64,000 bases of DNA. Source: Rhodothermus marinus. GTDB lineage: Bacteria; Bacteroidota; Rhodothermia; Rhodothermales; Rhodothermaceae. Where the stretch lies: positions 549,501 through 613,500 of the forward strand of contig NZ_AP019797.1 of NCBI RefSeq assembly GCF_009936275.1, read 5' to 3'. The translations under genes were made by a program, and so were the position numbers. Below the pieces are notes generated by a model. It was given only the letters and a program-made list of their open reading frames with translations, was not told the DNA's origin and ran no database searches. How positions within the stretch are numbered: position 1 is the first letter of the stretch; each line of letters begins with the position of its first letter. Positions 3,775 to 22,022 of this stretch are shown one piece after another.

Positions 3775-3776
3775 CG

Positions 3777-3833
3777 ACGGAGGAGTATGAAGAGCGCCGA
3801 CGTGTGCTGGAGCGGGATCGTCAGGGATTCTGA
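3777..3833 (+). pseudogene. 3' fragment of a SHOCT-domain gene
   Basis: Eighteen codons followed by TGA read [18 protein letters not shown], the end of a SHOCT (short C-terminal) domain. They start two bases after the last repeat of array 1, with no start codon. The matching 5' part sits at the far end of the island next to array 2, where the protein reads STEEYEERRRI before running into a repeat. Joining the two ends would restore a SHOCT protein of about 90 aa. The fragment overlaps the end of the convergent membrane-protein gene by 13 bp, as natural neighbours often do. Confidence 0.85.
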
Positions 3834-4498
3834 CGTTGGGCGCGCCGTTCAACCAGCATGCCGACGAGCGGAGGCACCCAGCAGAGGTTGGCCGCAATGG
3901 TCTCCAGTGCGGTATACACCTGTGTTGTGGGACTGAAGCCCAGCAGGCGTGCGCCCAGCAGACCTACGGGCACCAGGAGAATCACCAGGAGACTGGAGAG
4001 CATGACAGGATGGGTAAAGTAGGTGCTCAGGGTCTCTCTGGTAGAACCCGTACGTCGCCGTAGATACACGAAGCCGGCAATGTTGGCACCAAGCTGATCG
4101 CTCATGGCATAGAAAAAAGGAATGTAAAACCCCTCAACGCCATATACATCTATCCCTGCCGCACGACTTCCCCAGTCAATGATCCAGGGTACGACCATGC
4201 CTATCGCTTTGCCCCATCCATAGGCCTGCGCCATGGAGAAGGCCTGCTGTTGCAGGCGTTTCTTCAGGGCAAAGAGGCCTTCAAAGATGCTTTCGCCCTC
4301 GCCGGCCAGCGTGCGCACAATCCACTGACCGACGGCGCTTCGCTCCATGCCCTGGACGTCAAAGAACCAGCCCACCACCAGGCTGAGGACATATCCCGGC
4401 ACGGTATAACGGAGGAGTTCATCAAACTCCTCGCCTTCCAGGAGTTCTTCAAGTTCTTCTTCCTGGATCTCTTTTTCGTGTTGCCGTTTATCGGACAT
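3821..4498 (-). CDS. Small integral membrane protein of unknown function
   Basis: The start was set at the ATG at 4498 ([10 protein letters not shown]), four bases after the upstream ATPase stop, giving 225 aa; a longer reading would overlap the ATPase gene. The first 25 residues are strongly acidic (runs of E and D). Hydrophobic segments follow near residues 30-45, 100-115, 135-150, 165-190 and 200-215. No family was recognised and no catalytic motif is evident. Its close coupling to the P-type ATPase suggests an accessory role in metal handling, which is inference only. Confidence 0.7.
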
Positions 4499-4502
4499 GG
4501 GA

Positions 4503-6935
<2,433 letters not shown>

Positions 6936-6949
6936 GCCACCTCCTTGGA

Positions 6950-7291
6950 TTATACGGCAGAAGGTCCACGTTCCCCCGTTGAGATACGTATGGCATCTTC
7001 TACGGGATAGATGTAGATCTTGCCATCGCCCCGTAAGCCGGTGTGGGCCTTTTCCTGAATAATCTGGACGACCTCTTCAACCAGCTCGTCCAGGCAAACA
7101 ATCTCTAATTTGACCCCGGGTACGTAGTCCACGAGATCTTCGACGATGCGATGGGGTTCATTCTCGGCCCTGCCGCGGCCGAATCCGCGGGTATCGATAA
7201 CCGTGACGCCGGTGAGGGTGTCCAGCTTGCGTAGTGCGAGGGTTACGGCACTGAGCTTGTGGCGTTTGATGTAGGCGTGTATGGCTTTCAT
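6950..7291 (-). CDS. PII-like signalling protein in a metal-efflux operon
   Basis: This 113-aa protein has the size and pattern of the GlnB/GlnK family: [21 protein letters not shown], then [17 protein letters not shown] and [20 protein letters not shown], which match the beta1-B-loop-C-loop layout. The central T-loop is short and lacks the uridylylated Tyr region of true GlnB. Divergent PII proteins encoded beside heavy-metal RND pumps are a known subgroup, so it more likely senses or regulates metal efflux than nitrogen. It lies 16 bp after the CusA-type gene and 14 bp before the ATPase gene, inside one operon. The ligand is unknown. Confidence 0.85.
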
Positions 7292-7306
7292 GGTGCTTGG
7301 GGTGGT

Positions 7307-10300
7307 TTAGAGAGCTTCGGGTTCAATGGCGAACCACTTGTAGAGTGCAGGGAGAACCAGCAGGGTCAGGATCGTGGACGTAACGAGTCCGCCGATGACG
7401 ACCGTAGCCAGCGGGCGCTGCACTTCGCTCCCGGTCCCGGTGGCCAGCAGCGGGATCAGGCCCAGGGAGGTGGTAAGGGCCGTCATAAGTACCGGACGCA
7501 GACGAAGCAGTGCGCCTTCAATGGAGGCCTCATCTATCGGGATGCCGTCGCGAACGAGCTTGTTCAGGTAGGTAACCAGTACCATACCATTTTCCAGGGC
7601 AATACCGAAAAGGGCAATGAACCCCACCGAGGCGGGCACGGAGAGGTTCTGCCCGGTCAGTGCCAGGGCCACAATGCCTCCCACGAGGGCCAGCGGAATA
7701 TTCAGCAGAATAAGAAGCGAGTTCTTGAGCGAATTAAAGCTGGAGTAGAGCAGGATAAAGATCAGCAGCAGCGTGATAGGTATGACGACCATCAGCCGCT
7801 TGTTGGCCTCCTGCTGCAGGCGGAACTGGCCGCCCCACGTTACATAGTACCCCGGCGGCAGATCAACCTGTGCGTCGATGGCCTGCTGGGCTTCCTGAAC
7901 GAAGGTGCCGATATCGCGGCCGACCACGTTTGCCTGAATGGTGATAAACCGCTGGTTGTTCTCACGGGTAATCTGCCGGGGGCCCACAATTTCCTCAATG
8001 AGGGCGACTTCTTCCAGGGGAATGCGCAGACGCTCGTTCTCGGGAGAGGGAATAAGCAGATTCCGCACGTCCTCCACCGTCGTGCGATGTTCGGGGGTAT
8101 ACCGCACGTAGATATCAAACCGCCGCACGCCTTCGAAGATCTGCCCGGCTTCTTCACCGCCAATGGCCGCACGTACCGTGCGCTGCACATCCTCTACGTT
8201 CAGCCCGTAGCGGGCGATGGCCTCACGGTCCACACGGATGCGGAGCTGAGGTTTTCCGGCAATCTGGTCCGGCTGTACGTCGGCCGCGCCTCGTACCCGC
8301 TGGACCACCGCGGCGATTTCGTCAGCTTTTTCTTTGAGGGTTTGAAGATCCTCGCCAAAGAGTTTGATGGCCAGTTCGGCGCGTACGCCTTCCAGGAGTT
8401 CATCCACCGTCATCTGGATGGGCTGGGTGAAGTTGGTCAGTACCCCCGGAATTTCTCCGAGCGATTGCCGTATGAGCACTTCCAGTTCTTCCTGCGTATC
8501 CACACGCCACTCGTCACGGGGTTTGAGCAAGATGTACATCTCGGCGCTGTTGATGGGGTCGGTATGGGCGCCCACTTCACCTCGCCCGATGCGTGTAACC
8601 GTACCGGTTACCTCAGGGATCTGCATCACCTTACGCTCTACCCGGAGGGCCATTTCTTTGGCCGCCTCCAGGGAAATGGAAGGCGCCATGGTGAGCCGGA
8701 GGACCATGGTCCCTTCCTGCAGGGTAGGGGTAAATTCCGAGCCCAGGAAGGGAAAAACGGAAGCTCCTACGACCAGCAATCCAGCGGCAAGCATCACGGC
8801 CTTTTTGCGGTGATGGACGAAGTAGGTTACCACGGGACGATAGGCCTCCATCATGCGCGTGAGGATACGCTCGGCAAGCGGAGGGCGCGTGCGCTCCTTT
8901 CGTGGACGTTTCATGAGCAAACTGGAGAGGGTGGGGGCCAGCAAGAGCGCAAAGAGGAGGGAGCCGAACATGGCCATGGCCGTCGTGTAGGCCAGCGGGC
9001 GAAACGTCTTACCCTCGACGCCCTGCAGGGTAAACAGCGGAAGAAATACGATCACGATGATGGAGATGGCAAAGACGATGGGCCGTGCCACTTCCATACA
9101 GGCCCGGGCAATCACGTGCAGACGGGGTTCATCGGGATCGGCGGTGCGGAGCAGACGGTCGACGTTTTCAATCATGACAATGGTGCCGTCGACCATCATA
9201 CCGATGGCAATGGCCAGGCCGCCCAGCGACATGAGGTTGGCCGATATACCGAAGTGTTTCATGCCCAGTGTGGCAAACAGGACAGAAAAGGGAATGGAGA
9301 GGGCAACCACCACACTGGGACGCCAGCTTCCCAGGAAGGCCACCAGTACCAGAATAACCAGCAGAATCCCCTGAATCAGCGCACTGGTTACCGTATGAAC
9401 GGCGGCCTGTACCAGGGTCTTCTGCTCGTAGTAGGGCACGATACGGACCCCCTCCGGAAGCATTTTGTTGATTTCTGCCAGTCGCTGTTCTACCCGCCCG
9501 ATAACCGTGGAAGCATTGCTCCCGTAGAGTTTAATCACCATGCCCGCAACCACTTCCCCGAGACCGTTGCGGGTCTGCACCCCGCGGCGAATGGCCCCTC
9601 CGATGCGTACATCGGCCACATCGTGGAGGTAGATGGGGGTGCCGTCAACCGTCTTGATGACGATGTTTCTGAGATCGTTCACCCCGGTGGCCAGCCCCAC
9701 CGACCGGACGATGAATTCTTCATCGTTCTTTTCAAGGAACTGGGCCCCAACGTTCAGATTGTTGGCTTCAATGCGCTCAATAATCTCGTTGATGGTCAGA
9801 TTGTATTTGAGAAGGGCTTCGGGATCCACGTTCACGTGGAACTGTTTCTCAAACCCCCCGATACCCAACACTTCGGTAACGCCCGGGACGGTCTGCAGGT
9901 GGTATTTGATCAGCCAGTCCTGAATGGTACGCAGCTCCGTAAGGGAGTACTTTCCCGTGGTGTCGTCCAGGTAGTAAAACAGGATGAGGCCCATGCCGGT
10001 GGAAATAGGACCGAGCTGGGGCGTACCAAAGCCCTCGGGAATCTCGGCACGCACTTCCTGCAGGCGTTCGTTGACCAGCTGCCGGGCAAAGTAGATATCC
10101 GTACCATCTTTGAAGTAAATGTTGACGACCGACAGGCCGAAGTTGGAGATGGAACGGATGCGTTCCACGTCTGGCAGGCCGTTCATGGCGGCCTCGATGG
10201 GATAGGTTACGTATTGCTCTACTTCCTGTGGGGCAAGCCCTTCCGTAACGGTAAATACCTGGACCAGGGAAGGAGAGACATCCGGAAAGGCATCGACGGG

Positions 10301-10399
10301 CAGCGTGGTATAGCTGTAGTAACCCGCCCCCATGATAAGGGCGCCCAGCACGAGCATGAGCAGGCGGTTACGGAGCGTAAATTGAATCAGCTTGTTCAT
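7307..10399 (-). CDS. cusA: CusA/CzcA-type heavy-metal RND efflux pump
   Basis: This 1030-aa inner-membrane RND transporter drives proton-coupled metal export across both membranes with the adaptor and outer-membrane genes upstream. The N-terminal signature is present (LIQFTLRNRLLML, then DAFPDVSPSLVQVFT), with large periplasmic loops and twelve expected helices. Helix 4 reads AIGMMVDGTIVMIEN (D404 is the VDG aspartate). The A-x-G-x3-D-x6-EN pattern is that given for the monovalent Cu/Ag (HME4) class, so copper or silver is the likely substrate. It ends in ALYKWFAIEPEAL. Order on the minus strand is cusC-cusB-cusA-PII-ATPase. Confidence 0.95.
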   Translation of the reverse strand: MNKLIQFTLRNRLLMLVLGALIMGAGYYSYTTLPVDAFPDVSPSLVQVFTVTEGLAPQEVEQYVTYPIEAAMNGLPDVERIRSISNFGLSVVNIYFKDGTDIYFARQLVNERLQEVRAEIPEGFGTPQLGPISTGMGLILFYYLDDTTGKYSLTELRTIQDWLIKYHLQTVPGVTEVLGIGGFEKQFHVNVDPEALLKYNLTINEIIERIEANNLNVGAQFLEKNDEEFIVRSVGLATGVNDLRNIVIKTVDGTPIYLHDVADVRIGGAIRRGVQTRNGLGEVVAGMVIKLYGSNASTVIGRVEQRLAEINKMLPEGVRIVPYYEQKTLVQAAVHTVTSALIQGILLVILVLVAFLGSWRPSVVVALSIPFSVLFATLGMKHFGISANLMSLGGLAIAIGMMVDGTIVMIENVDRLLRTADPDEPRLHVIARACMEVARPIVFAISIIVIVFLPLFTLQGVEGKTFRPLAYTTAMAMFGSLLFALLLAPTLSSLLMKRPRKERTRPPLAERILTRMMEAYRPVVTYFVHHRKKAVMLAAGLLVVGASVFPFLGSEFTPTLQEGTMVLRLTMAPSISLEAAKEMALRVERKVMQIPEVTGTVTRIGRGEVGAHTDPINSAEMYILLKPRDEWRVDTQEELEVLIRQSLGEIPGVLTNFTQPIQMTVDELLEGVRAELAIKLFGEDLQTLKEKADEIAAVVQRVRGAADVQPDQIAGKPQLRIRVDREAIARYGLNVEDVQRTVRAAIGGEEAGQIFEGVRRFDIYVRYTPEHRTTVEDVRNLLIPSPENERLRIPLEEVALIEEIVGPRQITRENNQRFITIQANVVGRDIGTFVQEAQQAIDAQVDLPPGYYVTWGGQFRLQQEANKRLMVVIPITLLLIFILLYSSFNSLKNSLLILLNIPLALVGGIVALALTGQNLSVPASVGFIALFGIALENGMVLVTYLNKLVRDGIPIDEASIEGALLRLRPVLMTALTTSLGLIPLLATGTGSEVQRPLATVVIGGLVTSTILTLLVLPALYKWFAIEPEAL

Positions 10400-10429
10400 G
10401 GCAGTTTCTCAGTCGTTTAGCGGGGACTC

Positions 10430-11602
10430 TTAATGACCGTGGCCTTCTTCCATCTCGCTTTTCTCCAGTTCGGCACGTAAGACAAACCCACCCTTTCGTA
10501 CATACACATCCCCGGGGCGCAGGCCACCCGTAAGCTGTACCAAGGTGTCGTTTTCCAGGCCTATGGTTACCGGTACGGGTTTGAATCCCTCGCCGGTATA
10601 CACGAACACGACCGGCTGCTCATTCATGTAGAGGATAGCCGTCTTGGGTACCACAATGTCCGCCTGAATGCTACCCACCTCGATCTGGCCCGTCACGAAC
10701 GTTCCGGGTTTGTACAGTCCCTCCGGATTACGTACGACGGCCCGGGCAATGGCTGTGCGGGTCTCCTCGCCCAGGATGGGACGCACAAAACGAATGCGCG
10801 TCTTGATAACGGGAAGCCCATGACCCAGTTGAATGGTTACGGGCTGACCGGCCTGTATCCTCGGGAGATCGCGGGGATACACACTCAGGTCAATCCACAC
10901 GGTCCGGAGATCGGCAATGGTGAAGGCCACATCGTTGGCCTCAAGCGCTTCCCCGAGGGCAAGATGCCGGTCGACGACAATGCCGGAGAGGGGGGCTCGC
11001 AGTTCGTACCTTGCCAGTTGTTCTTCCGGAAGCTGCGGAAGGCTATCGACATACGCCTGCGAAAAGCCCAGGGCCAGGAGTTTCTGCCGTGCAATCTGCA
11101 GTTCAATGGTGGCTTCGGCCAGTTGCTGCTGGGCTTCCAGGTATTCCTGCTCGGATGCGATATTCTGCCTGAAGAGCCGGGCTTCACGTTCGGCATTGGC
11201 GCGGGCAAGCTTGTAGCGTTCCAGTGCCGCAAGGTAGGCTCCCTGTAGTTCGGCCAGTTCCCTGCTTTCAAGCAGGGCCATGCGTGCCCCCTGCTGAACC
11301 CGGTCGCCCACCGTGTAAAAAGCCTGCTGCACGATACCGGGTACACGGGGGACTACATGCACGAGCCGGTCTTCGTTGACCTTGATCTCGCCGGGTAACG
11401 CCACCGTTACGGTGATCGTGCCGGCGCGGGCCGTATCCAGAACCACCCCGTAGTCCTGAAGGACTTCAAGGGGCAGCGTTACCATTTCTTCGGCATGTTC
11501 GGTCGCTGGGGTGGGGGAGGTTTCGGGTTCATCGCCACATCCGGTCAGGAAGGCGATGGTGAGTACGATGAGGAGTGCAGGGTACCGGTTCATGGCGTTC
11601 AT
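10430..11602 (-). CDS. cusB: RND periplasmic adaptor lipoprotein (CusB-like)
   Basis: This 390-aa membrane-fusion protein connects the RND pump to its outer-membrane channel. The N-terminus is a lipoprotein signal (ALLIVLTIAFLTGCGDEP, lipobox LTGC). A long helical hairpin rich in Ala, Glu and Gln follows at about residues 120-185, flanked by lipoyl-like halves (VVPRVPGIVQQAFYTVGDRV and RAPLSGIVVDRHLALGEA). It ends in EKSEMEEGHGH, a short acidic and His tail that could bind metal. An in-frame ATG three codons downstream is an alternative start. It lies 6 bp after cusC and 30 bp before cusA. Confidence 0.93.
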   Translation of the reverse strand: MNAMNRYPALLIVLTIAFLTGCGDEPETSPTPATEHAEEMVTLPLEVLQDYGVVLDTARAGTITVTVALPGEIKVNEDRLVHVVPRVPGIVQQAFYTVGDRVQQGARMALLESRELAELQGAYLAALERYKLARANAEREARLFRQNIASEQEYLEAQQQLAEATIELQIARQKLLALGFSQAYVDSLPQLPEEQLARYELRAPLSGIVVDRHLALGEALEANDVAFTIADLRTVWIDLSVYPRDLPRIQAGQPVTIQLGHGLPVIKTRIRFVRPILGEETRTAIARAVVRNPEGLYKPGTFVTGQIEVGSIQADIVVPKTAILYMNEQPVVFVYTGEGFKPVPVTIGLENDTLVQLTGGLRPGDVYVRKGGFVLRAELEKSEMEEGHGH

Positions 11603-11608
11603 AGGGTC

Positions 11609-12853
11609 TTAGTTGGAAGAGGAAAACGGCAGCAGTTGCCCGGTCAGGGCCTGGAGCTGGATGTAGGTGCGGTGATAGCGTGCCAGCACGTCCACGTACT
11701 GCATCTCGATCTCGAAGAACGTGCGCTGGCTATCCAGCACATCGAGCACGTTAAACTTGCCCTGTTGATAGCCCTCACGAATGGCCTCGTAGGCCTGCTC
11801 AGCCGCAGGTAGTGCCTCTTGCTTCAGAAGCTGGAGTTCGCGATACGTTGCAAGCAGGCGGCTATAGGTTGCCTGCAGGGAGGTTTCGAGGGCAATCCGG
11901 GCATTTTTCCACTCGGCCACGGTTGCCTGGTACGTGGCACGTGCCGCCTGAATGGCCCCCTGATTTCGATGAAACAGCGGAATGGGCAGGGTAAAACCAA
12001 CCGTCAGGAACCGTTTGGGGGTATCGGCAAGCTGTTGGGTGCCTACCGTGATGCCGATGTCGGGCCAGCGCCGGGCACGTTCAAGGCGCTCCCGGGCCTG
12101 TGCGGCTTGCTGCAATGCTTCCAGTTGCTGGAGCAGCGGATGGGCCCGCAGTTTTTCTGCCAAGCGATCGTAGGGGGGAGGCGTACGCAGGGTATCCAGT
12201 ACATCCTCTAACACCACATCAGGGAGGATGGGCTGACCGAGTGCGGCCGCCAACTGGCTCCGGGCGACATCATAGGACCGACGCGCTTCAAGGTACTGGG
12301 CCTCGGCCCGACTTTTCTCTACCCGAACACGTTGCTGCTCCACAGGCGATAGCTTGCCCGCTTCTACCATGGAGGTAATGGTGGCGTACAGGCGGGTGGC
12401 CAGGCCGGATAGCTGCTCGGCAAGTTGCATTCGCCGGCGGGCCACAAGCGCATTGAAGTAGGCCTCCGTGAGCTGTTGGGCCACGGTGAGCTGGACCACA
12501 AAGGCTTCGTACTGCGTGGCCTCGTACGTTCGGCGTGCAAACTGGACCTGACGGTGTAATTTGCGTCCGAGGAGTACGTCCTGGGACAGACGATAGAACA
12601 GGCCTCCAGGCGATTGGCCGGACGACCATTCTTCAGCTTCTACCTCTATGACAGGGTTGGGCCACAGGCCCGCCTGCCGGATCTGCCCCTTGGCTGCTTC
12701 TGTGCGCCACTGGGCGGTCTGTGCCGCAGGATGTTCCTGCAGTGCCTGCTGGAGGGCTTGCTCCAGTCTCAGGGTATCAGGGGGTGAGGACTGTGCAAAG
12801 GCTGGAAGTGCATAGCACGCTATCCAGATACACAGGTACACGACATACCGCAT
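11609..12853 (-). CDS. cusC: TolC-family outer-membrane efflux channel (CusC-like)
   Basis: This 414-aa protein has a cleavable signal peptide (CIWIACYALPAFAQSS) and two internally similar halves rich in Ala, Gln, Leu and Arg, as in outer-membrane factor proteins that form the trimeric exit duct. Motifs such as LWPNPVIEVEAEEW and FTLPIPLFHRNQGAI are typical of the CusC/CzcC branch. Its ATG follows GGAGAAAG six bases away, but that ribosome binding site lies inside a 13-bp hairpin arm (see 12855-12922), so its translation may be controlled. It is the first structural gene of the pump operon after the small secreted protein. Confidence 0.93.
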   Translation of the reverse strand: MRYVVYLCIWIACYALPAFAQSSPPDTLRLEQALQQALQEHPAAQTAQWRTEAAKGQIRQAGLWPNPVIEVEAEEWSSGQSPGGLFYRLSQDVLLGRKLHRQVQFARRTYEATQYEAFVVQLTVAQQLTEAYFNALVARRRMQLAEQLSGLATRLYATITSMVEAGKLSPVEQQRVRVEKSRAEAQYLEARRSYDVARSQLAAALGQPILPDVVLEDVLDTLRTPPPYDRLAEKLRAHPLLQQLEALQQAAQARERLERARRWPDIGITVGTQQLADTPKRFLTVGFTLPIPLFHRNQGAIQAARATYQATVAEWKNARIALETSLQATYSRLLATYRELQLLKQEALPAAEQAYEAIREGYQQGKFNVLDVLDSQRTFFEIEMQYVDVLARYHRTYIQLQALTGQLLPFSSSN

Positions 12854-12854
12854 C

Positions 12855-12922
12855 GCTTTCTCCGGTTTTGGGGACTGAAAACCGCCATCGTTGCCCCGTG
12901 AATAGGGCGAACCGGAGAAAGC
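12855..12922 (-). promoter_or_regulatory. Hairpin covering the cusC ribosome binding site
   Basis: A perfect 13-bp inverted repeat (12855-12867 with 12910-12922) fills the gap between the stop codon of the upstream gene and the cusC ATG. In the minus-strand RNA the 3' arm holds GGAGAAAG, the cusC Shine-Dalgarno site, and ends one base before the ATG. A competing shorter stem, GGTTTT (12864-12869) with AAAACC (12878-12883), uses part of the same arm. Two exclusive folds next to a start codon resemble a translational switch. A simple processing hairpin is the alternative. Confidence 0.6.
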
Positions 12923-13372
12923 CTAAATACGCAGCACGACGGTCTGCAGTGTGGTCAGCGCGGGAGAAGCGGGAACATGTCCGGAGACCTCGAAACGAGG
13001 AAGGGAAGGGGCAGGCTCCGGAAGGGATACATACGCGGTCTGGAAGACCACGGGAAGGGATACATAGGCAACGGGTACAGATACTCGGTGCTCAACAATG
13101 GAGAGTACCAGGGGGATGTCGAAACAGGGATCCTTCTGATCTACATGACCCTGAAACGCTGCGGGGCTATCCCGGTGGGCCATGTGCTGGGTAATCGGCA
13201 GCGCAGGGAGGCAGTCGGCATTCTCCAGGGTTTCTACGTGCGTCACACCATCAGACTCTATGCAGAGGAGCAGACCTCCCCACCCCATCTGGCTCAGGGG
13301 AAAGATCAGCAGGGTAAGCGTGAGCAACAGGCTCACGCTGGGAGAAGTTCTATGTTGGGAGGCGTATGCCAT
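12923..13372 (-). CDS. Small secreted Cys/His protein upstream of the RND operon
   Basis: This 149-aa protein has a hydrophobic segment near residues 13-38, then LCIESDGVTHVETLENADC and DPCFDIPLVLS. Small proteins with an LCI-x2-DG-x2-E core and a Cys-DIPL segment occur next to czc/cus operons in several phyla; I recall this pattern but could not search it. The paired Cys and His residues suggest periplasmic metal binding. It is the first gene of the minus-strand operon and divergent from the first multicopper oxidase. Function is unproven. Confidence 0.65.
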   Translation of the reverse strand: MAYASQHRTSPSVSLLLTLTLLIFPLSQMGWGGLLLCIESDGVTHVETLENADCLPALPITQHMAHRDSPAAFQGHVDQKDPCFDIPLVLSIVEHRVSVPVAYVSLPVVFQTAYVSLPEPAPSLPRFEVSGHVPASPALTTLQTVVLRI

Positions 13373-13391
13373 TGCCGCAGCATATTCCGGG

Positions 13392-13413
13392 GATACGGGG
13401 AAGTTCCCGTATC
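13392..13413. promoter_or_regulatory. Palindrome between divergent metal genes
   Basis: GATACGGG (13392-13399) and CCCGTATC (13406-13413) form an 8-bp inverted repeat with a 6-bp centre. It lies in the 97-bp gap between the minus-strand efflux operon and the plus-strand oxidase operon, just upstream of a TTAAG-type box. It could be a repressor or MerR-type operator acting on the minus-strand promoter; no regulator for it lies in the island. Confidence 0.4.
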
Positions 13414-13418
13414 TGCGG

Positions 13419-13434
13419 TTAAGCCTTTTTTAAG
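13419..13434 (+). promoter_or_regulatory. Putative copper-response box (TTAAG-N6-TTAAG), copy 1
   Basis: TTAAG at 13419-13423 and again at 13430-13434, an 11-bp offset, with CCTTTT between. Direct repeats one helical turn apart are the usual binding layout for OmpR-family regulators such as CusR and CopR. The same box lies upstream of the second oxidase (15562) and the second efflux operon (55595). A weak -10-like TATTAC follows at 13442. Confidence 0.55.
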
Positions 13435-13469
13435 GTCGTGATATTACATTGACCCAAAAGAGCAAAGCC

Positions 13470-14909
13470 ATGCGTTCCAGAAGATCTTTTCTGAAACAAT
13501 TTGCGCTCGGAAGCACCGTTCTGGGGCTGGGAGGTGGGGGATTGCTCCTGGAAGGGTGTTCCCGCCTGGCGCCGGCCGAGGGTGCTACGCTTCCCTCTTT
13601 TGTGCCCCTGTCCGGCAGGGGCGGAGCACAGAGGTACCGGCTTGTGGCCGAGGTGGGCGAGGTGGAGGTGGGGCCCGGCGAGGTCTACCGGACCTGGCTC
13701 TATAACGGTCAGTTTCCCGGTCCGGAGATCCGCGTGCGAGAGGGAGATGTCCTTGAGGTGGAGGTGGAGAACCGCCTTCCGGAGGGTACCACCGTGCACT
13801 GGCACGGCCTCCCCGTGCCCAACGCCATGGACGGCGTGCCGGGGCTGACGCAGGACCCCATTCCTCCGGGCGAGATCTTCCTTTACCGGTTTACGGCCGG
13901 ACCGGCCGGAAGCTACCTCTACCACAGCCATGTGGGGCTGCAACTGGACCGTGGCTTAATTGCCCCCCTCGTGGTGGAGGAGACAACCCCTCACGTGGCC
14001 TACGACCGGGAATACACCGTGGTACTCGACGACTATCTGCCCGGTGATCCGGAGCCGCTTACGGGCGTGATGATGGGGCCACGCATGATGCGACGTCGGG
14101 GTATGATGGGCGGGGTGGTAACGCCACCCTACCGGGGATTGCTCGTCAACGGGCGTCTGCCCTCCGCACCGGTGACCTTCGAGGTAAAGCAGGGCGAGCG
14201 CGTGCGGTTTCGGCTGATGAATCCCTCGGGGGCCACGACCTTCCGGGTGGCGCTGGCGGGCCACCGGATGTGGGTCACGCATACGGATGGGCGACCCGTG
14301 GAGCCCTACGAGGTGGACAGTCTGTACATCGCCATGGGCGAGCGCTACGATGTGGTCGTCGAGATGAACCACCCGGGCGCATGGAACCTGATGGCCCTAC
14401 CCGTGGAGGTGCAGGCCCCGCCGGCACGGGCTGTCGTGCGGTATGCCGGCGTTCAGGATGCCGATCCGCCGCTGCGTGCCCTGCCGGAGGGACTTCGTCG
14501 TGGGCGTGTGCTGAACCTCTCACGCCTGGTCTCCGTGGAGCTGGAGAACACGGCGCCCGTACGGCCCGATCGCGTGTTTCGCATGACGCTCTCCGGAGGC
14601 ATGATGGGAGGCCGCTGGACCATCAACGGCCAGGCCTACCCCGATGCCGACCCCTTGCTGATTGAAGAGGGGATGCATGTGGGCGTGCAGATGTTCAACA
14701 TGAGCATGATGCTCCATCCCATGCACCTGCACGGGCACTTCTTCCGTACGGGACGCATCCTGAAGGATACGCTGACCGTCCGGCCTCACATGGGGCGTGG
14801 CAGCTTTGTCTTCCGGGCGGATAATCCAGGCCGCTGGTTCTTCCACTGCCATAACGTGTATCATCTCGAGGCCGGCATGGCGCGGGAGTTTCGCTACACC
14901 TCTTCGTGA
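13470..14909 (+). CDS. Tat-exported multicopper oxidase
   Basis: The start is the ATG giving MRSRRSFLKQFALGS, a twin-arginine signal (SRRSFLK); an in-frame TTG 21 bp upstream is less likely. The 479-aa protein has all four copper-binding segments: HWHGLPVP, YHSHVG, HPMHLHGHFF and FHCHNVYHLEAGM. These build one type 1 and one trinuclear copper centre. It probably oxidises Cu(I) in the periplasm or cell envelope, like CueO and CopA. LLEGCSR after the Tat helix could be a lipobox. It has Met-rich stretches (MMGPRMMRRRGMMGG) that may bind Cu(I). The 3' end overlaps the convergent methyltransferase gene by 16 bp. Confidence 0.93.
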   Translation: MRSRRSFLKQFALGSTVLGLGGGGLLLEGCSRLAPAEGATLPSFVPLSGRGGAQRYRLVAEVGEVEVGPGEVYRTWLYNGQFPGPEIRVREGDVLEVEVENRLPEGTTVHWHGLPVPNAMDGVPGLTQDPIPPGEIFLYRFTAGPAGSYLYHSHVGLQLDRGLIAPLVVEETTPHVAYDREYTVVLDDYLPGDPEPLTGVMMGPRMMRRRGMMGGVVTPPYRGLLVNGRLPSAPVTFEVKQGERVRFRLMNPSGATTFRVALAGHRMWVTHTDGRPVEPYEVDSLYIAMGERYDVVVEMNHPGAWNLMALPVEVQAPPARAVVRYAGVQDADPPLRALPEGLRRGRVLNLSRLVSVELENTAPVRPDRVFRMTLSGGMMGGRWTINGQAYPDADPLLIEEGMHVGVQMFNMSMMLHPMHLHGHFFRTGRILKDTLTVRPHMGRGSFVFRADNPGRWFFHCHNVYHLEAGMAREFRYTSS

Positions 14910-15550
14910 TCCGGGGCCGGTTTCTGTGCGCGGAGGGCCACGAAGGCGCCCCGCCCGTAGCCCGGTTCCACGGGATCGGGACGGGTCATCCGGTCGGGGA
15001 ACGTGAAGATCGTTTGCACCATGGCCACGTGCCGGAAGCCCGCCTCGCAGAGGAGGTCCAGGACCTCGGAGGTGCTGTAAAAGGTGGCCTCCCGGTAGAA
15101 GGGATTACGGACCTTTTCCCGTTCATAGGTCTTCCCGAGGTGGCTCTCCCGGTCAATGAATCCCACCACAACGTATCCCCCGGGCTTCAGCACGCGGTGG
15201 ATTTCCCAGAAGGCCCTTGCCGGATCGTCCAGGAAGCAGAGCGTGGTGACCATGAGTACGGCATCGAACCGATGGTCCTCAAAGGGCAGGGCCTCGCCGG
15301 TGCCGGGCACGACGGTAAGCCCGCGTGCCTCGGCCACACGCCGCATGGTCTCCGAGGGCTCCACCCCCAGGCGGATGCCCAGCGGGAGGGCAAACCGTCC
15401 GGTTCCCACGCCCACCTCCAGCGTTTCCCGTGCCTCCGGAGGCCAGAGCTTCCGGAGGGCCTCCAGTTCGGACCGGTAGGCCATTTCGTGGCGGTCGAAC
15501 CAGGCATCGTAGCGCTCGGGGTATTGGTCAAAGGGTGCGGTGCGGGCCAT
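14894..15550 (-). CDS. Class I SAM-dependent methyltransferase
   Basis: This 218-aa protein has the Rossmann methyltransferase pattern: motif I LEVGVGTGRFALPLG, an acidic residue after beta2 (LGVEPSETM), motif II RFDAVLMVTTLCFL and a post-motif LKPGGYVVVGFI. The substrate is not evident; it resembles the broad methyltransferase 11 group, and nothing specific for arsenic (no conserved Cys triad) is visible. It is the only minus-strand gene within the plus-strand copper cluster and sits between two oxidases. A role in metal or metalloid methylation is possible but unproven. Confidence 0.85.
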   Translation of the reverse strand: MARTAPFDQYPERYDAWFDRHEMAYRSELEALRKLWPPEARETLEVGVGTGRFALPLGIRLGVEPSETMRRVAEARGLTVVPGTGEALPFEDHRFDAVLMVTTLCFLDDPARAFWEIHRVLKPGGYVVVGFIDRESHLGKTYEREKVRNPFYREATFYSTSEVLDLLCEAGFRHVAMVQTIFTFPDRMTRPDPVEPGYGRGAFVALRAQKPAPDHEEV

Positions 15551-15561
15551 TGCTTCGGGGT

Positions 15562-15577
15562 TTAAGCCTTCCTTAAG
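15562..15577 (+). promoter_or_regulatory. Putative copper-response box (TTAAG-N6-TTAAG), copy 2
   Basis: TTAAG at 15562-15566 and 15573-15577, an 11-bp offset, with CCTTCC between. A -10-like TATGCT lies at 15589. The box is upstream of the CopA-like oxidase and almost identical to the copy at 13419, including the CCTT that follows the first half-site. Confidence 0.55.
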
Positions 15578-15634
15578 TTACGACCTCGTATGCTTGAGCC
15601 TCAGCAGGCTGTACACCTGAAAACCACAAGCCGT

Positions 15635-17455
15635 ATGAAAAATATACCATCCTCACGGAACCGCAGAGAATTCCTCCAGGCGTTGCTGGCCCTGGGGGTT
15701 ACGGCCGGACTGGAGGCGCTGCTTCCACCCTATGCCCGGGCCATCCCCCGGGTCATGGGGCCTCCAGAGCCCGTAGAGGGTCCCCGTATCTTTGAACTAG
15801 AACTCCGGGAGGTCCCCTTTACCGTGGGCGGTAAGACGGGACACGCCACGGCCATTAACGGCACGGTGCCGGGGCCGCTGCTTCGCTTCCGGGAGGGGGA
15901 GGAGGTCATCCTCCGCGTGACCAACCGCCTGAAGGAGGACAGCTCCATTCACTGGCATGGCCTCCTCGTCCCCTTTGATATGGACGGCGTCCCGGGTGTG
16001 AGTTTTCCGGGCATCCGACCTGGTGAAACCTATGAATACCGCTACCGTGTGCGCCAGCACGGAACGTACTGGTACCACAGCCACAGCGGACTCCAGGAGC
16101 AGACGGGCATCTACGGCCCCATCATCATTGACCCCGAAGGTCCCGAGCCCTATCCCTACGACCGGGAGTATGTGGTCATGCTCAGCGACTGGACGTTCGA
16201 GAACCCCATGCGGGTGCTGAGCAATCTGCGCAAGTACCCGGGCTATTACAACTTCCAGCGGCGCACGCTGCTCGATCTACCCGAGGAAATCCGGGAAAAA
16301 GGCCTGAAGGCGGCCATTCAGGATCGCCTGGCCTGGGGACGCATGCGTATGGACGTGCGCGACCTCGTGGATATTACCGGAGCCACGTACACTTACCTCA
16401 TGAACGGCCGGGCACCGGGGGATAACTGGACGGCCCTCTTCAAGCCCGGCGAACGCGTACGGCTGCGCTTCATCAACGCCGCGGCGGATAGCTTCTTTGA
16501 CGTACGCATTCCGGGACTGCGCATGACGGTCATCCAGGCCGACGGGCAGTACGTGCAGCCCGTGGTGGTCGATGAGTTCCGCATTGGCATTGCCGAGACG
16601 TACGACGTCATCGTGGAGCCGAAGGAGGAGCAGGCCTATACCATTTTTGCCGAGTCGCTGGACCGCAGCGGCTATGCCCGCGGGACGCTGGCACCCCAGG
16701 AGGGGATGGAAGGCCCCATTCCGCCGCGCCGGAAGCCGCCCTACCGTTCGATGAAAGATATGGGAATGATGCACGGGGATATGGAGGGCATGTCCCATGG
16801 AAACATGCAGGGGATGTCCCACGGAGGCCACGGGATGATGATGGGCGGCATGGCCATGGCCGGCAAAGATAGCCAGCCCCCGGGAATGCCGCCGGCACCC
16901 AGGGCCCATCCAAAGGACCGGCACAGCCCGACCAATGCGGCCATTCCCATGATGACCTTCAGCCGGCTCCATGAACCGGGGATTGGACTGGGGCAGGATG
17001 GCTGGCGGGTGCTCGTCTATACGGATCTGAAGACGCTCTATCCCCGGGAAGATTTTCGTCCGCCCACGCGGGAGATTGAGATGCACCTGACGGGCAACAT
17101 GGAGCGCTTCCTCTGGTCCATTGATGGCAAGGCCTATTCCGAAGCGCCCGAGCCCATTGAAATCAAGTACGGCGAGCGTGTGCGCCTTACGCTGGTCAAC
17201 GATACCATGATGGAACACCCCATGCACCTCCACGGCATGTGGATGGAGCTGGAGAACGGGCATGGGCGCTGGATTCCCCGCAAGCACACGGTCATCGTCA
17301 AACCCGCCGAGCGTCTTTCCGTGCTCATTACCCCCGATGAGCCGGGGCCGTGGGTGTTCCATTGCCACATCCTCTATCACATGGAGATGGGGATGTTCCG
17401 TGTCTTCCAAGTCCTTGAACCCAAAGCCGAGACGTCCGATGAGAAGTATACGTAA
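15635..17455 (+). CDS. copA: CopA/PcoA-family multicopper oxidase, Tat-exported
   Basis: The ATG at 15635 (MKNIPSSRNRREFLQ) was chosen because it gives a compact Tat signal (NRREFLQ); an upstream in-frame ATG at 15590 would lie in the probable -10 element. The 606-aa protein has HWHGLLVPFDMDGVPG, YHSHSG, HPMHLHGMWME and FHCHILYHMEMGM copper sites. Between domains lies a Met/His/Gly-rich insert (MGMMHGDMEGMSHG and similar, about residues 375-415), the hallmark of CopA/PcoA proteins that carry extra copper ions. The copB reading frame overlaps its last 17 bp, the classic copAB arrangement. Confidence 0.95.
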   Translation: MKNIPSSRNRREFLQALLALGVTAGLEALLPPYARAIPRVMGPPEPVEGPRIFELELREVPFTVGGKTGHATAINGTVPGPLLRFREGEEVILRVTNRLKEDSSIHWHGLLVPFDMDGVPGVSFPGIRPGETYEYRYRVRQHGTYWYHSHSGLQEQTGIYGPIIIDPEGPEPYPYDREYVVMLSDWTFENPMRVLSNLRKYPGYYNFQRRTLLDLPEEIREKGLKAAIQDRLAWGRMRMDVRDLVDITGATYTYLMNGRAPGDNWTALFKPGERVRLRFINAAADSFFDVRIPGLRMTVIQADGQYVQPVVVDEFRIGIAETYDVIVEPKEEQAYTIFAESLDRSGYARGTLAPQEGMEGPIPPRRKPPYRSMKDMGMMHGDMEGMSHGNMQGMSHGGHGMMMGGMAMAGKDSQPPGMPPAPRAHPKDRHSPTNAAIPMMTFSRLHEPGIGLGQDGWRVLVYTDLKTLYPREDFRPPTREIEMHLTGNMERFLWSIDGKAYSEAPEPIEIKYGERVRLTLVNDTMMEHPMHLHGMWMELENGHGRWIPRKHTVIVKPAERLSVLITPDEPGPWVFHCHILYHMEMGMFRVFQVLEPKAETSDEKYT

Positions 17456-18181
17456 AGGATTACTGGTTGGCGTGCTGCTCCTGGTCGGAGGGCTTCCTGC
17501 CCTGGGACAGCAGCGCCCGCTCATCCGCTTTGCCAACGAGCACTGGCTTACGTTCATTCTGTTCGACCGGTTGGAGATGGAGCCCGCCTCGGCGGGGAAT
17601 CCCCTGGCCTGGGACATGGACGGCTGGGCCGGAAAGGTCTACGATCGCCTCTGGGTGCGCAGTGAAGGGGAATTAAGGACCGACCGCCGGGAGGGCGATG
17701 TGGAGTTTCAGGCCCTCTACAGCCGACTCATCGCGCCGTACTGGGATGCCCAGGTAGGGGCCCGGGTGGAGCTGGCCCTGGCCGAGGGCGAGGTGCGTCG
17801 CCGCGTGCACCTGGCCGTGGGACTGGAGGGACTGGCCCCCTACTGGTTTGAGCTGGAGCCCCAGCTCTCCGTCAGCCAGGACGGCGACATCTCGGCCTCC
17901 CTGCTGGCCTCACACGATGTGTTCATCACCCAGCGGCTCATTCTCCAGGGGCAACTGGAGACGCTGGCCGCCCTTCAGGAGGTGCCGGAATGGGGGTGGG
18001 AAGTGGCTTGAACTTCGTCGATGCAAGCCTTCGGCTTCGCTACGAGATCCGCCGGGAATTTGCCCCCTATGTGGGATTCCGATGGCAGCGATTCCTGGGG
18101 CCAACGGCCGATCTGGTCCGTGACGAAGGGGAGCCCGTGAGTCTCAGCCGGCTGGTCTTTGGCCTGCGGGTCTGGTACTGA
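17439..18181 (+). pseudogene. copB: copB, outer-membrane copper resistance protein, frameshifted
   Basis: The start overlaps copA (MRSIRKGLLVGVLLLVGG, a signal peptide). The first frame covers about 190 residues typical of CopB/PcoB: DRLEMEPASAGNPLAWDMDGW and FELEPQLSVSQDGDISASL. It then stops at 18011. The next frame continues the family sequence directly (GVGSGLNFVDASLRLRYEI to FGLRVWY, ending at 18181). The shift maps to a run of five G at 17992-17996; removing one G restores the frame through PEWGVGSGLN. It may be a real mutation, a sequencing error in a homopolymer, or slippage. The full protein would be about 247 aa. Confidence 0.88.
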
Positions 18182-18198
18182 AAAACGAGGAGGTTACC

Positions 18199-18453
18199 AT
18201 GGCAAACGTACGTATTCTGGCCACAAGGACCTGCCACCACCGGCCATACCTGGAAAAGGAGCTGAGTCGTCGCGGAATCCCCTACGAGGTGGTCTATACG
18301 GATGAACGCCCCGATCTCGTAGCACGGTACCACATTCGACATTCACCGGTACTGCTTGTCGATGACGAGGTCGTCTTCATGGGCATGCCGGAGGGGAAGG
18401 CGCTGGAAGCCTGGATAGCGCAATACCGTTCAGGTTCTTTTAAGCAAAGGTAG
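18199..18453 (+). CDS. Small thioredoxin/glutaredoxin-like protein with one cysteine
   Basis: This 84-aa protein has a thioredoxin-fold pattern: RILATRTCHHRPYLEKELSRRGI, then EVVYTDERPDLVARYHIRHSPVLLVDDEVVF (cis-Pro segment HSPVLL). The active-site region is CHHRP, so only one cysteine is present and normal disulfide exchange is unlikely; Cys with two His may bind copper. It has no signal peptide. An in-frame GAGGAGG ribosome binding site precedes the ATG. It follows copB by 17 bp in the copper operon. Confidence 0.8.
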   Translation: MANVRILATRTCHHRPYLEKELSRRGIPYEVVYTDERPDLVARYHIRHSPVLLVDDEVVFMGMPEGKALEAWIAQYRSGSFKQR

Positions 18454-18494
18454 GCTATATTCCCATACAGGAAAAAACCAAACCGGAGCACACC

Positions 18495-19223
18495 ATGAGA
18501 AAGCTACTGATTGCGGGCCTGTTGATGAGCATGCCTTTACTGGCCCTGGGCCAGCAGCACGGACATATGGGCGGCATGATGTCCCAGCCCGATACGACCA
18601 AAAAAATGATGCAGGGCGGGATGATGGGTATGATGGGTGGAGGTATGATGCAGGGTGGTATGATGGGTGGCGGCATGGGAATGATGGGCATGGTGCAGCA
18701 GATGGGAATGATGATGCAGCACCCCATGCATCGGGCCATGGCCATGGTCTTCGCGCTGCCCTACCTGGAGGAAGAGCTGGGGCTGACCGAGGAGCAGAAG
18801 AAGCAGCTCGAAGCGCTGAAGCAGGAGTTTCTCCAGCAGCATCAGGCCACCATGCAGGCCATGATGGGACTGCACCAGACCCTTATGGAAAAGATGCAGG
18901 ACCCCAATGCCTCGCTGGACGACATCCGGGCCACCATGCAGGTCATGATGAACATGGGGCTCAACATGCACATGCTGGCGCTGGAGACCACCCGGAAAAT
19001 GGAGCAGGTGCTGACCGAAGAGCAGCGTGAGAAGCTCCGCAGCTTTACGCCTCAGCAGTGGATGCAGGCCATGATGCGCCACATGCCCATGATGGAGATG
19101 ATGCACATGATGCAGATGCACGGCGGCATGATGGGGATGGGCATGATGATGGGCGGAGGCATGGGTGGCATGATGCAGGGCGGTATGAGGCATGGACAGA
19201 TGCCCATGCAACGGCAGCATTGA
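18495..19223 (+). CDS. Met-rich exported protein with a Spy/CpxP-like core
   Basis: The 242-aa protein starts with a signal peptide (KLLIAGLLMSMPLLALG). Two Met/Gly-rich arms, about residues 27-80 and 205-240, are built from GGMM, MQGGMM and MGGGM units, and they flank a helical core with LGLTEEQKKQLEALKQEF and LTEEQREKLRSFTPQQW, the LTxxQ motifs of Spy/CpxP proteins. Met clusters bind Cu(I). A periplasmic copper-buffering or chaperone role fits the context. A possible own promoter lies upstream (TATATT at 18456) because the gap to the previous gene is 41 bp. Low-complexity arms could expand or contract by slippage. Confidence 0.88.
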   Translation: MRKLLIAGLLMSMPLLALGQQHGHMGGMMSQPDTTKKMMQGGMMGMMGGGMMQGGMMGGGMGMMGMVQQMGMMMQHPMHRAMAMVFALPYLEEELGLTEEQKKQLEALKQEFLQQHQATMQAMMGLHQTLMEKMQDPNASLDDIRATMQVMMNMGLNMHMLALETTRKMEQVLTEEQREKLRSFTPQQWMQAMMRHMPMMEMMHMMQMHGGMMGMGMMMGGGMGGMMQGGMRHGQMPMQRQH

Positions 19224-19359
19224 TGTTACCGGGTGCCAGAAGCATACGCTACCTCCGACTGGCTGGCACAGGGAAGCATGCCAGGAGGTGATCCCCAGCA
19301 TGGGATCGCCTCCTCGGTGCTTCCTGGATTTCGGTGATGCACAAACATAGGAGGCAACC

Positions 19360-19600
19360 ATGTATAACGGATGCTGTGACTGGATGTGGGGATGGGGCGG
19401 TGGCTGGTGGATGATGATCTTCTGGGTCCTGTTCTGGATAGCCATCATTGTGCTGGTTATCTACCTCATCCGCCAGCTGGGCAGCCGGCCTTCTGCCCAT
19501 CCGCCAAAAAGCGCTCCACTTTCCCCGCTGGAGGTACTTCAGCTCCGGTATGCCCGCGGGGAGATCTCCACAGAGGAGTACGAAGAACGCAGGCGCATAC
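19360..19600 (+). pseudogene. SHOCT-domain membrane protein, 5' part, cut by CRISPR array 2
   Basis: GGAGGCAACC precedes the ATG. The first 80 codons encode a Trp/Met-rich start, one membrane helix (about residues 14-40) and a SHOCT domain beginning SPLEVLQLRYARGEISTEEYEERRRI. The frame then runs into the first repeat of array 2, giving a foreign tail that ends at 19686. SHOCT proteins normally end a few residues later. The missing end, [18 protein letters not shown] and a stop, is at 3777-3833. The last 33 nt before the repeat fill one spacer slot and match the 33 nt after array 1. Confidence 0.88.
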
Positions 19601-21397: not shown

Positions 21398-21455
21398 CGC
21401 GGTCGATGCGGAAAAACCTCGAGACTGGCGTCGCATCGGTCGCAAATACAGAAAA

Positions 21456-21482
21456 AGGCTGCTGCACATAAAGCAGCAGCCT
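21456..21482 (-). terminator. Intrinsic-type terminator of unit A
   Basis: A perfect 10-bp stem (21456-21465 with 21473-21482), 7-nt loop, then TTTTTC on the minus strand. It faces the end of array 2 and would stop leftward transcription before it enters the array. Confidence 0.75.
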
Positions 21483-21690
21483 AATAGGTGACCCGGGCCA
21501 AGCACCGCGCTGCCCTCCCGGGTACGCCGCGCGCTTCGACGGGCGCGACCTCCACGCGCGACGACATGGTCTTACAAGAAGTAGCTTGACAACGGTTCCA
21601 TGTCTGTACGGATCATCGCCCATCTGGACGACAAAGCCTTCCAGGCGTCGGTTCGAGAGCTGCACCGGCGCGTGCGTAACCTGCGTTCGC

Positions 21691-21718
21691 GGTGCCTCGC
21701 ATACGCGGGGATCGTTCC
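21691..21718 (+). repeat. Decayed CRISPR repeat-like sequence 1
   Basis: GGTGCCTCGCATACGCGGGG followed by ATCGTTCC resembles the array repeat, closest to the T5C/C14A variant, with one deletion and one insertion. The stem CCTCGC/GCGGGG is still possible. It lies 294 bp past the last array repeat and marks the 5' edge of unit A on the minus strand. Confidence 0.55.
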
Positions 21719-21756
21719 GTCGAAAGGATGCCGCCGGATCGGCCGCGACTTGCAGA

Positions 21757-22022
21757 GAAAAGGGCTGCTGCACGTAGGGCAGCAGCCCGGAGCGTAATCC
21801 AGACGAAGCGCCGCGCCGCTTCCGGATACCCCGCGGGTTCATCGGGCGCGGCCTCCCCCGCAGGGCTACACATTACAGGTGACTGCCCGCAGAAGGTTCC
21901 ATGCGGAGCGTCGCGCAGCGCGACGACAAGCCCCTCCAGGCCACAAGTGGGAAGCCGCATCGCATGAGGGCGGATAGCCTGCCCGAATCAATTCGGGCGT
22001 CCCCGCTCCCGTAAAGATCGCG
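21757..22022 (-). ncRNA. Candidate structured RNA, unit B
   Basis: A diverged tandem copy of unit A, about 305 bp upstream on the minus strand. It has the 8-bp stem (21830-21837 with 21857-21864), the conserved loop (16/19 identical to unit A), the 7-bp stem (21797-21803 with 21821-21827) with the identical GCGCGG inner loop, and a terminator. Paired changes relative to unit A preserve the stems. It lies between the DinB gene stop and unit A, so it could be a 3' untranslated element of that transcript or a separate RNA. Confidence 0.5.
21762..21788 (-). terminator. Intrinsic-type terminator of unit B
   Basis: GGGCTGCTGC (21762-21771) pairs with GCAGCAGCCC (21779-21788), 7-nt loop, followed by TTTTCTCT on the minus strand. 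Stem sequence and loop length match the terminator of unit A. Confidence 0.7.

Follow-up and report, generated by a model that had tools for sequence, protein, structure and literature searches.

Do the two similar units beside a CRISPR array in the Rhodothermus genome G000 (3.43 Mb) encode an RNA whose structure is under selection and, if so, does this RNA belong to the array or act on its own? The window, i.e., the whole 64,000-nucleotide stretch of DNA under analysis, is part of that genome, and an earlier note on it had described tandem RNA-like units, A and B, offset by about 305 bp. The spacing measures 306 bp, and both units are diverged copies of one structured RNA on the minus strand (74% identity across ~100 nt), comprising a P1 hairpin, a P2 hairpin and an intrinsic terminator (Table 1). 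P1 and P2 are GC-rich and directly adjacent, with a linker of 0 nt, and the terminator hairpin follows them.

Table 1. Positions of the RNA units and neighboring features in the window
Feature	Position	Strand	Basis or remarks
Unit A RNA core (P1, P2, intrinsic terminator)	21456..21563	-	alignment and pair counts; R1 117 bits
Unit B RNA core (P1, P2, intrinsic terminator)	21762..21865	-	alignment and pair counts; R1 127.8 bits
A P1	21525..21563; stem 21554-21563 / 21525-21534; 19-nt loop 21535-21553	-	eight-copy alignment
B P1	21829..21865; stem 21857-21865 / 21829-21837; 19-nt loop 21838-21856	-	eight-copy alignment
A P2	21489..21524; outer stem 21517-21524 / 21489-21497, inner stem, loop GCGCGG 21505-21510	-	
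B P2	21795..21828; outer stem 21821-21828 / 21795-21803, inner stem, loop GCGCGG 21811-21816	-	
A terminator	21451..21482	-	10-bp stem, 7-nt loop, T run
B terminator	21757..21788	-	10-bp stem, 7-nt loop, T run
A loop-1 segment TCGCGC	21543..21548	-	complementary to loop 2 (21505-21510); proposed kissing pairing
B loop-1 segment CCGCGC	21846..21851	-	complementary to loop 2 (21811-21816)
Degenerate CRISPR repeat between A and B	21691..21717	+	alignment score 42, shuffle maximum 32, 0/500
A upstream block CATGGAACC-N17-TTGTAA, possible promoter	21566..21602	-	just before P1
B upstream block, same pattern as A, possible promoter	21867..21903	-	

The fold corrects the first description in several details. 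The stem of P1, originally given as 8 bp, is present but longer (10 pairs in A, 9 in B), and its two flipped pairs (G-C to C-G and C-G to G-C) hold when the minus strand is re-read. The 7-bp stem of P2 is likewise present, with the changes C-G to U-A, G-C to A-U and G-C to G-U, but the GCGCGG loop does not cap it directly: the outer stem, interrupted by one bulge, is built of 2 + 6 pairs, and between it and the loop lies an inner stem (A, 5 pairs; B, 4), which contributes an extra double change from A-U to G-C. Both terminators are located on the minus strand with the stem and loop lengths claimed for them, and their outermost pair also covaries between A and B (A-U to G-C). The loop of the A terminator (21466-21472) reads TTTATGT in G000 and G002 and its exact reverse complement, ACATAAA, in G004 (locus L010), as though it had been inverted between palindromic arms.

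Six copies were found beyond A and B, giving eight in total, distributed over five of seven Rhodothermus genomes. A DNA search matched A in G002 (97%), both units in G004 (86% for A) and just one unit in G006 (71%); within G000 it returned two strong matches, A and B themselves, and no third good copy. The B copy of G002 adjoins its A copy, and a covariance model built from seven copies added one further copy, in G005. No copy was found in G001 or G003 with a second, terminator-less covariance model, and the RNA would thus be dispensable, since two of the seven species do without it. Farther afield, the seven-copy model found nothing convincing in the rest of the class (245 genomes searched), nor did the terminator-less model in a phylum-wide sample of 394 genomes, Rhodothermus itself apart, both being large runs with stricter filters that very distant relatives could escape. 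Weak matches in G102 (E 0.07) and G002 (E 0.42) were taken as chance. A DNA pattern, narrower than the covariance models, gave 49 matches in the GTDB species collection, two of which are the already known Rhodothermus contigs of G004 and G005; the other 47 loci reached a covariance-model E of 0.14 at best and were also attributed to chance. The plasmid and phage collections held no match, a pattern scan of viral contigs returned nothing, and no Rfam 15 family matched at the gathering threshold or at relaxed ones, the highest scores, 13-18 bits where 43-56 are required, being those of chance. As judged from these searches, the family is apparently restricted to the genus.

Selection on the structure is evident from how the copies differ. 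In the first, uncorrected alignment, 99.6% of the base-pair cells hold standard pairs, a figure that falls to 29-47% when the partners are slid by 1-3 columns, and shuffles never attain the covariation score. In the corrected eight-copy alignment, which leans towards the structure because the correction was made by hand with the structure in view, 298/302 cells are standard (98.7%) and eight pairs show changes on both sides, seven of them already in the uncorrected version. Compensations beyond the A/B comparison include a U-A at P1 pair 8 in the A copy of G004 and a U-A at P1 pair 6 in G005 and G006. Neutral evolution of a structured ancestor, simulated on the tree, left 72.7 +/- 4.2% of the cells paired, with none of 400 runs matching the observed 98.7% and six of 400 equalling the count of double changes; compensatory changes are therefore above the neutral expectation. 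RNAalifold scored against column shuffles gives z -5.7 for P1, P2 and the terminator together, of which the terminator supplies much, P1-P2 alone reaching z -1.9 in the uncorrected alignment. Folded singly, the sequences do not stand out (z -1.7 and -1.05), which is no surprise given their G+C content. Additionally, 29 cells are non-Watson-Crick, mostly G-U pairs that the opposite strand would read as A-C mismatches, and together with the minus-strand terminators they indicate that the RNA is read from the minus strand. The original proposal of RNA-like units with a selected structure, and its expectation that further covarying homologs exist, are thus borne out by the six additional copies, their fresh compensations and the simulation (0/400), and A and B very probably represent a real, selected RNA gene.

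Just upstream of P1 lies a conserved block, CATGGAACC-N17-YTGTAA, which may contain the promoter. CATGGAACC is identical in seven of the eight copies and TGTAA in all eight, their spacing is constant within 1 nt, and the exact pattern occurs in the genome at A and B only. The motif matches no standard sigma-70 site and, as it also occurs nowhere else in the genome, any start point assigned from it is a guess. An ECF-sigma promoter was considered and rejected, the motif being its sole support and having no other site in the genome. An extra stem in the block, GCAGG/CYUGU, proposed by alifold, was dropped after column shuffles (z -0.6 to +0.2).

Conservation is distributed differently in the two units. 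The B RNAs of G000 and G004 share 97.4% identity, compared with 76.6% for the upstream flank and block of B, whereas the A RNA (86%) is no better kept than its own flank and block (88%). The G006 unit is B-like in its RNA (83%) and A-like in its upstream block (79%). In these eight sequences, the pattern fits a duplication after which B would have retained the RNA sequence and A the upstream block, with the stems of A drifting under compensation.

The position of the units beside array 2 had implied a link between the two, and a CRISPR-linked RNA, i.e., a tracrRNA-like anti-repeat RNA or a CreA/CreR-like degenerate crRNA, would account for the degenerate repeat beside each unit. The repeat between A and B is significant (Table 1), and its minus strand reads as an anti-repeat. 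However, this repeat is located outside the folded RNA, >100 nt upstream of P1, and a tandem duplication that took in the last repeat of the array would also account for it. The CreR-like variant is further weakened by the pseudo-spacers, whose match to the cas region (seed 7) falls within the range obtained with real spacers as controls (5-12). Most directly, the RNA and the I-E system occur independently: G005 and G006 have the RNA but neither matching I-E repeats nor Cas1e above the cut-off (G005 shows one weak, sub-threshold Cas1 match), whereas in G003 Cas1e, an I-E array and its trailer are present and the RNA unit is absent. Proximity to the array is thus a matter of position; a CRISPR-linked RNA is largely refuted and we consider it extremely unlikely. 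An RNA can lie beside a CRISPR array without being part of it.

The wider genomic context bears on the other explanations. The units are found between the array trailer and dinB in G000 and G002 and between the array and the galactokinase side in G004; in G005 and G006 they are flanked by a propeller gene on one side and a TPR gene on the other, in a stretch not common to the other genomes tested. Aptamer-like paired hairpins followed by a terminator could form a cis-acting element, either a riboswitch or attenuator or, given that G000 and G002 have dinB on the same strand, upstream of the units, a 3'-UTR or terminator element of that gene. Yet dinB adjoins the units in these two genomes only and is absent from the other five, A is followed downstream by the CRISPR array, which runs antisense to it, the TPR gene of G006 lies ~330 bp downstream of its unit, and no gene is consistently upstream or downstream of the RNA across the copies, nor was a conserved same-strand downstream gene found. 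Inspection by eye reveals no alternative pairing that could serve as an antiterminator. As no gene is consistently adjacent, a role in trans is preferred and one in cis is unlikely. An antisense role against a small opposite-strand ORF, as in type I toxin-antitoxin systems or plasmid copy control, would find its target in an ORF-like block on the plus strand (21600-21797, MSVRIIAHLDDKAFQ...), which has its ATG inside the conserved upstream block and is in frame in the A copies of G000, G002 and G004. This ORF shows no coding constraint between G000 and G004 (14 nonsynonymous and 6 synonymous codons), and plus-strand coding was rejected on that ground; its product is hydrophilic and without a Pfam match, and with no plasmid or phage relatives either, the antisense explanation is very unlikely. 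Coding on the RNA strand was also rejected, by inspection, A and B differing by 1- and 2-nt indels in the core. Finally, the units could be the tandem remnant of a mobile element beside genomic islands, with an RNA that no longer functions; their sites differ by species, they adjoin an array split by an island and, in G006, a gene of 34-43% G+C, and G001 and G003 have none. Against this stand the compensation that maintains the structure, the conservation of the B RNA far above that of its flanks and the lack of a repeat family in the genome, with its two strong matches only, so that a defunct remnant is improbable.

The explanation that we favor, and consider moderately probable as a whole, is that A and B are sibling small RNA genes, transcribed independently and candidate regulators in trans. 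Transcription would proceed from a promoter in the upstream block, start just upstream of P1 and stop at the intrinsic terminator of each gene, yielding a structured non-coding RNA of ~105-120 nt. It is reasonably likely that this RNA works in trans, either as a regulator or by binding protein, in both cases independently of Hfq and probably through its GC-rich loops. A search for Hfq came up empty in all seven genomes, and the control genomes were positive. Tandem sibling small RNAs include PrrF1/PrrF2 and OmrA/OmrB. Similar to these, A and B would be two diverged, intergenic neighbors of ~100 nt with their own terminators; in contrast to them, A and B occur in a genus without detectable Hfq and form GC-rich, stable hairpins with mutually complementary loops. 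To our knowledge, PrrF1/PrrF2 and OmrA/OmrB have no sequence relation to A and B. Judging by sequence and predicted fold, the RNA is a previously unnamed structured family of a familiar kind, that of intergenic, terminator-ended small RNAs. No small RNAs described in this lineage were found in the literature, and the searchable literature holds no published transcript data for the genus. What emerges is a well-supported RNA family whose structure is modeled precisely, from a thermophilic lineage that branches deeply and apparently lacks Hfq.

The loops are conserved as the earlier note had claimed, although it had missed that they are complementary to each other. Loop 1 (YCGCGY) can pair with loop 2 (GYGCGG) in one register in all eight copies (48/48 cells paired), and because the variable loop columns are all C/T opposite G, every change preserves a pair. 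A fully paired register arises in 572 of 20000 loop-column shuffles (p ~0.03), and the support from complementarity is suggestive only. The loops of P1 and P2 may thus kiss, within one molecule or between two, including A with B. A kiss within one molecule would be strained by the zero-nucleotide linker, and since P1 and P2 abut, pairing between two molecules appears at least as plausible. We give even chances to such pairing being used at all. In a bolder version, quite improbable as it stands, the siblings would cooperate: as P1 and P2 abut, coaxially stacked molecules would be joined head to tail by two six-bp kissing loops (loop 1 of each with loop 2 of its partner), and the resulting heat-stable dimers (A-A, B-B or A-B) would bind a target common to both siblings, or silence it, in a thermophile that lacks Hfq. 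Kissing-loop RNAs include ColE1 RNAI/RNAII, TAR-TAR* and the loops of purine riboswitches. The likeness to these lies in a six-nt hairpin loop fully complementary to another; the difference is that here the pairing is proposed from complementarity and wobble-preserving changes only, in no plasmid or ligand context.

Several further observations concern the surroundings. A second degenerate repeat, which is weak, lies beyond B at ~21995-22020 on the plus strand. In the array trailer of G003 (L098), the repeats that close the I-E array degenerate progressively and run into a gene that, read from its translation, is SHOCT-domain-like. The G006 unit is located just downstream of a six-bladed propeller gene of low G+C content (34-43%; L014:3600-4400), probably acquired horizontally, in surroundings of mostly 55-66% G+C. 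In the window, a copper-resistance island of ~15.8 kb (3776-19600), encoding a P-type ATPase, efflux parts and multicopper oxidases, splits a formerly single CRISPR array and has SHOCT-like coding pieces (TEEYEERRR) at both ends. In G002 the array is undivided, with 74 repeats, and ten consecutive spacers of array 2 of G000 match its spacers 39-49 in order, G002 having one extra.
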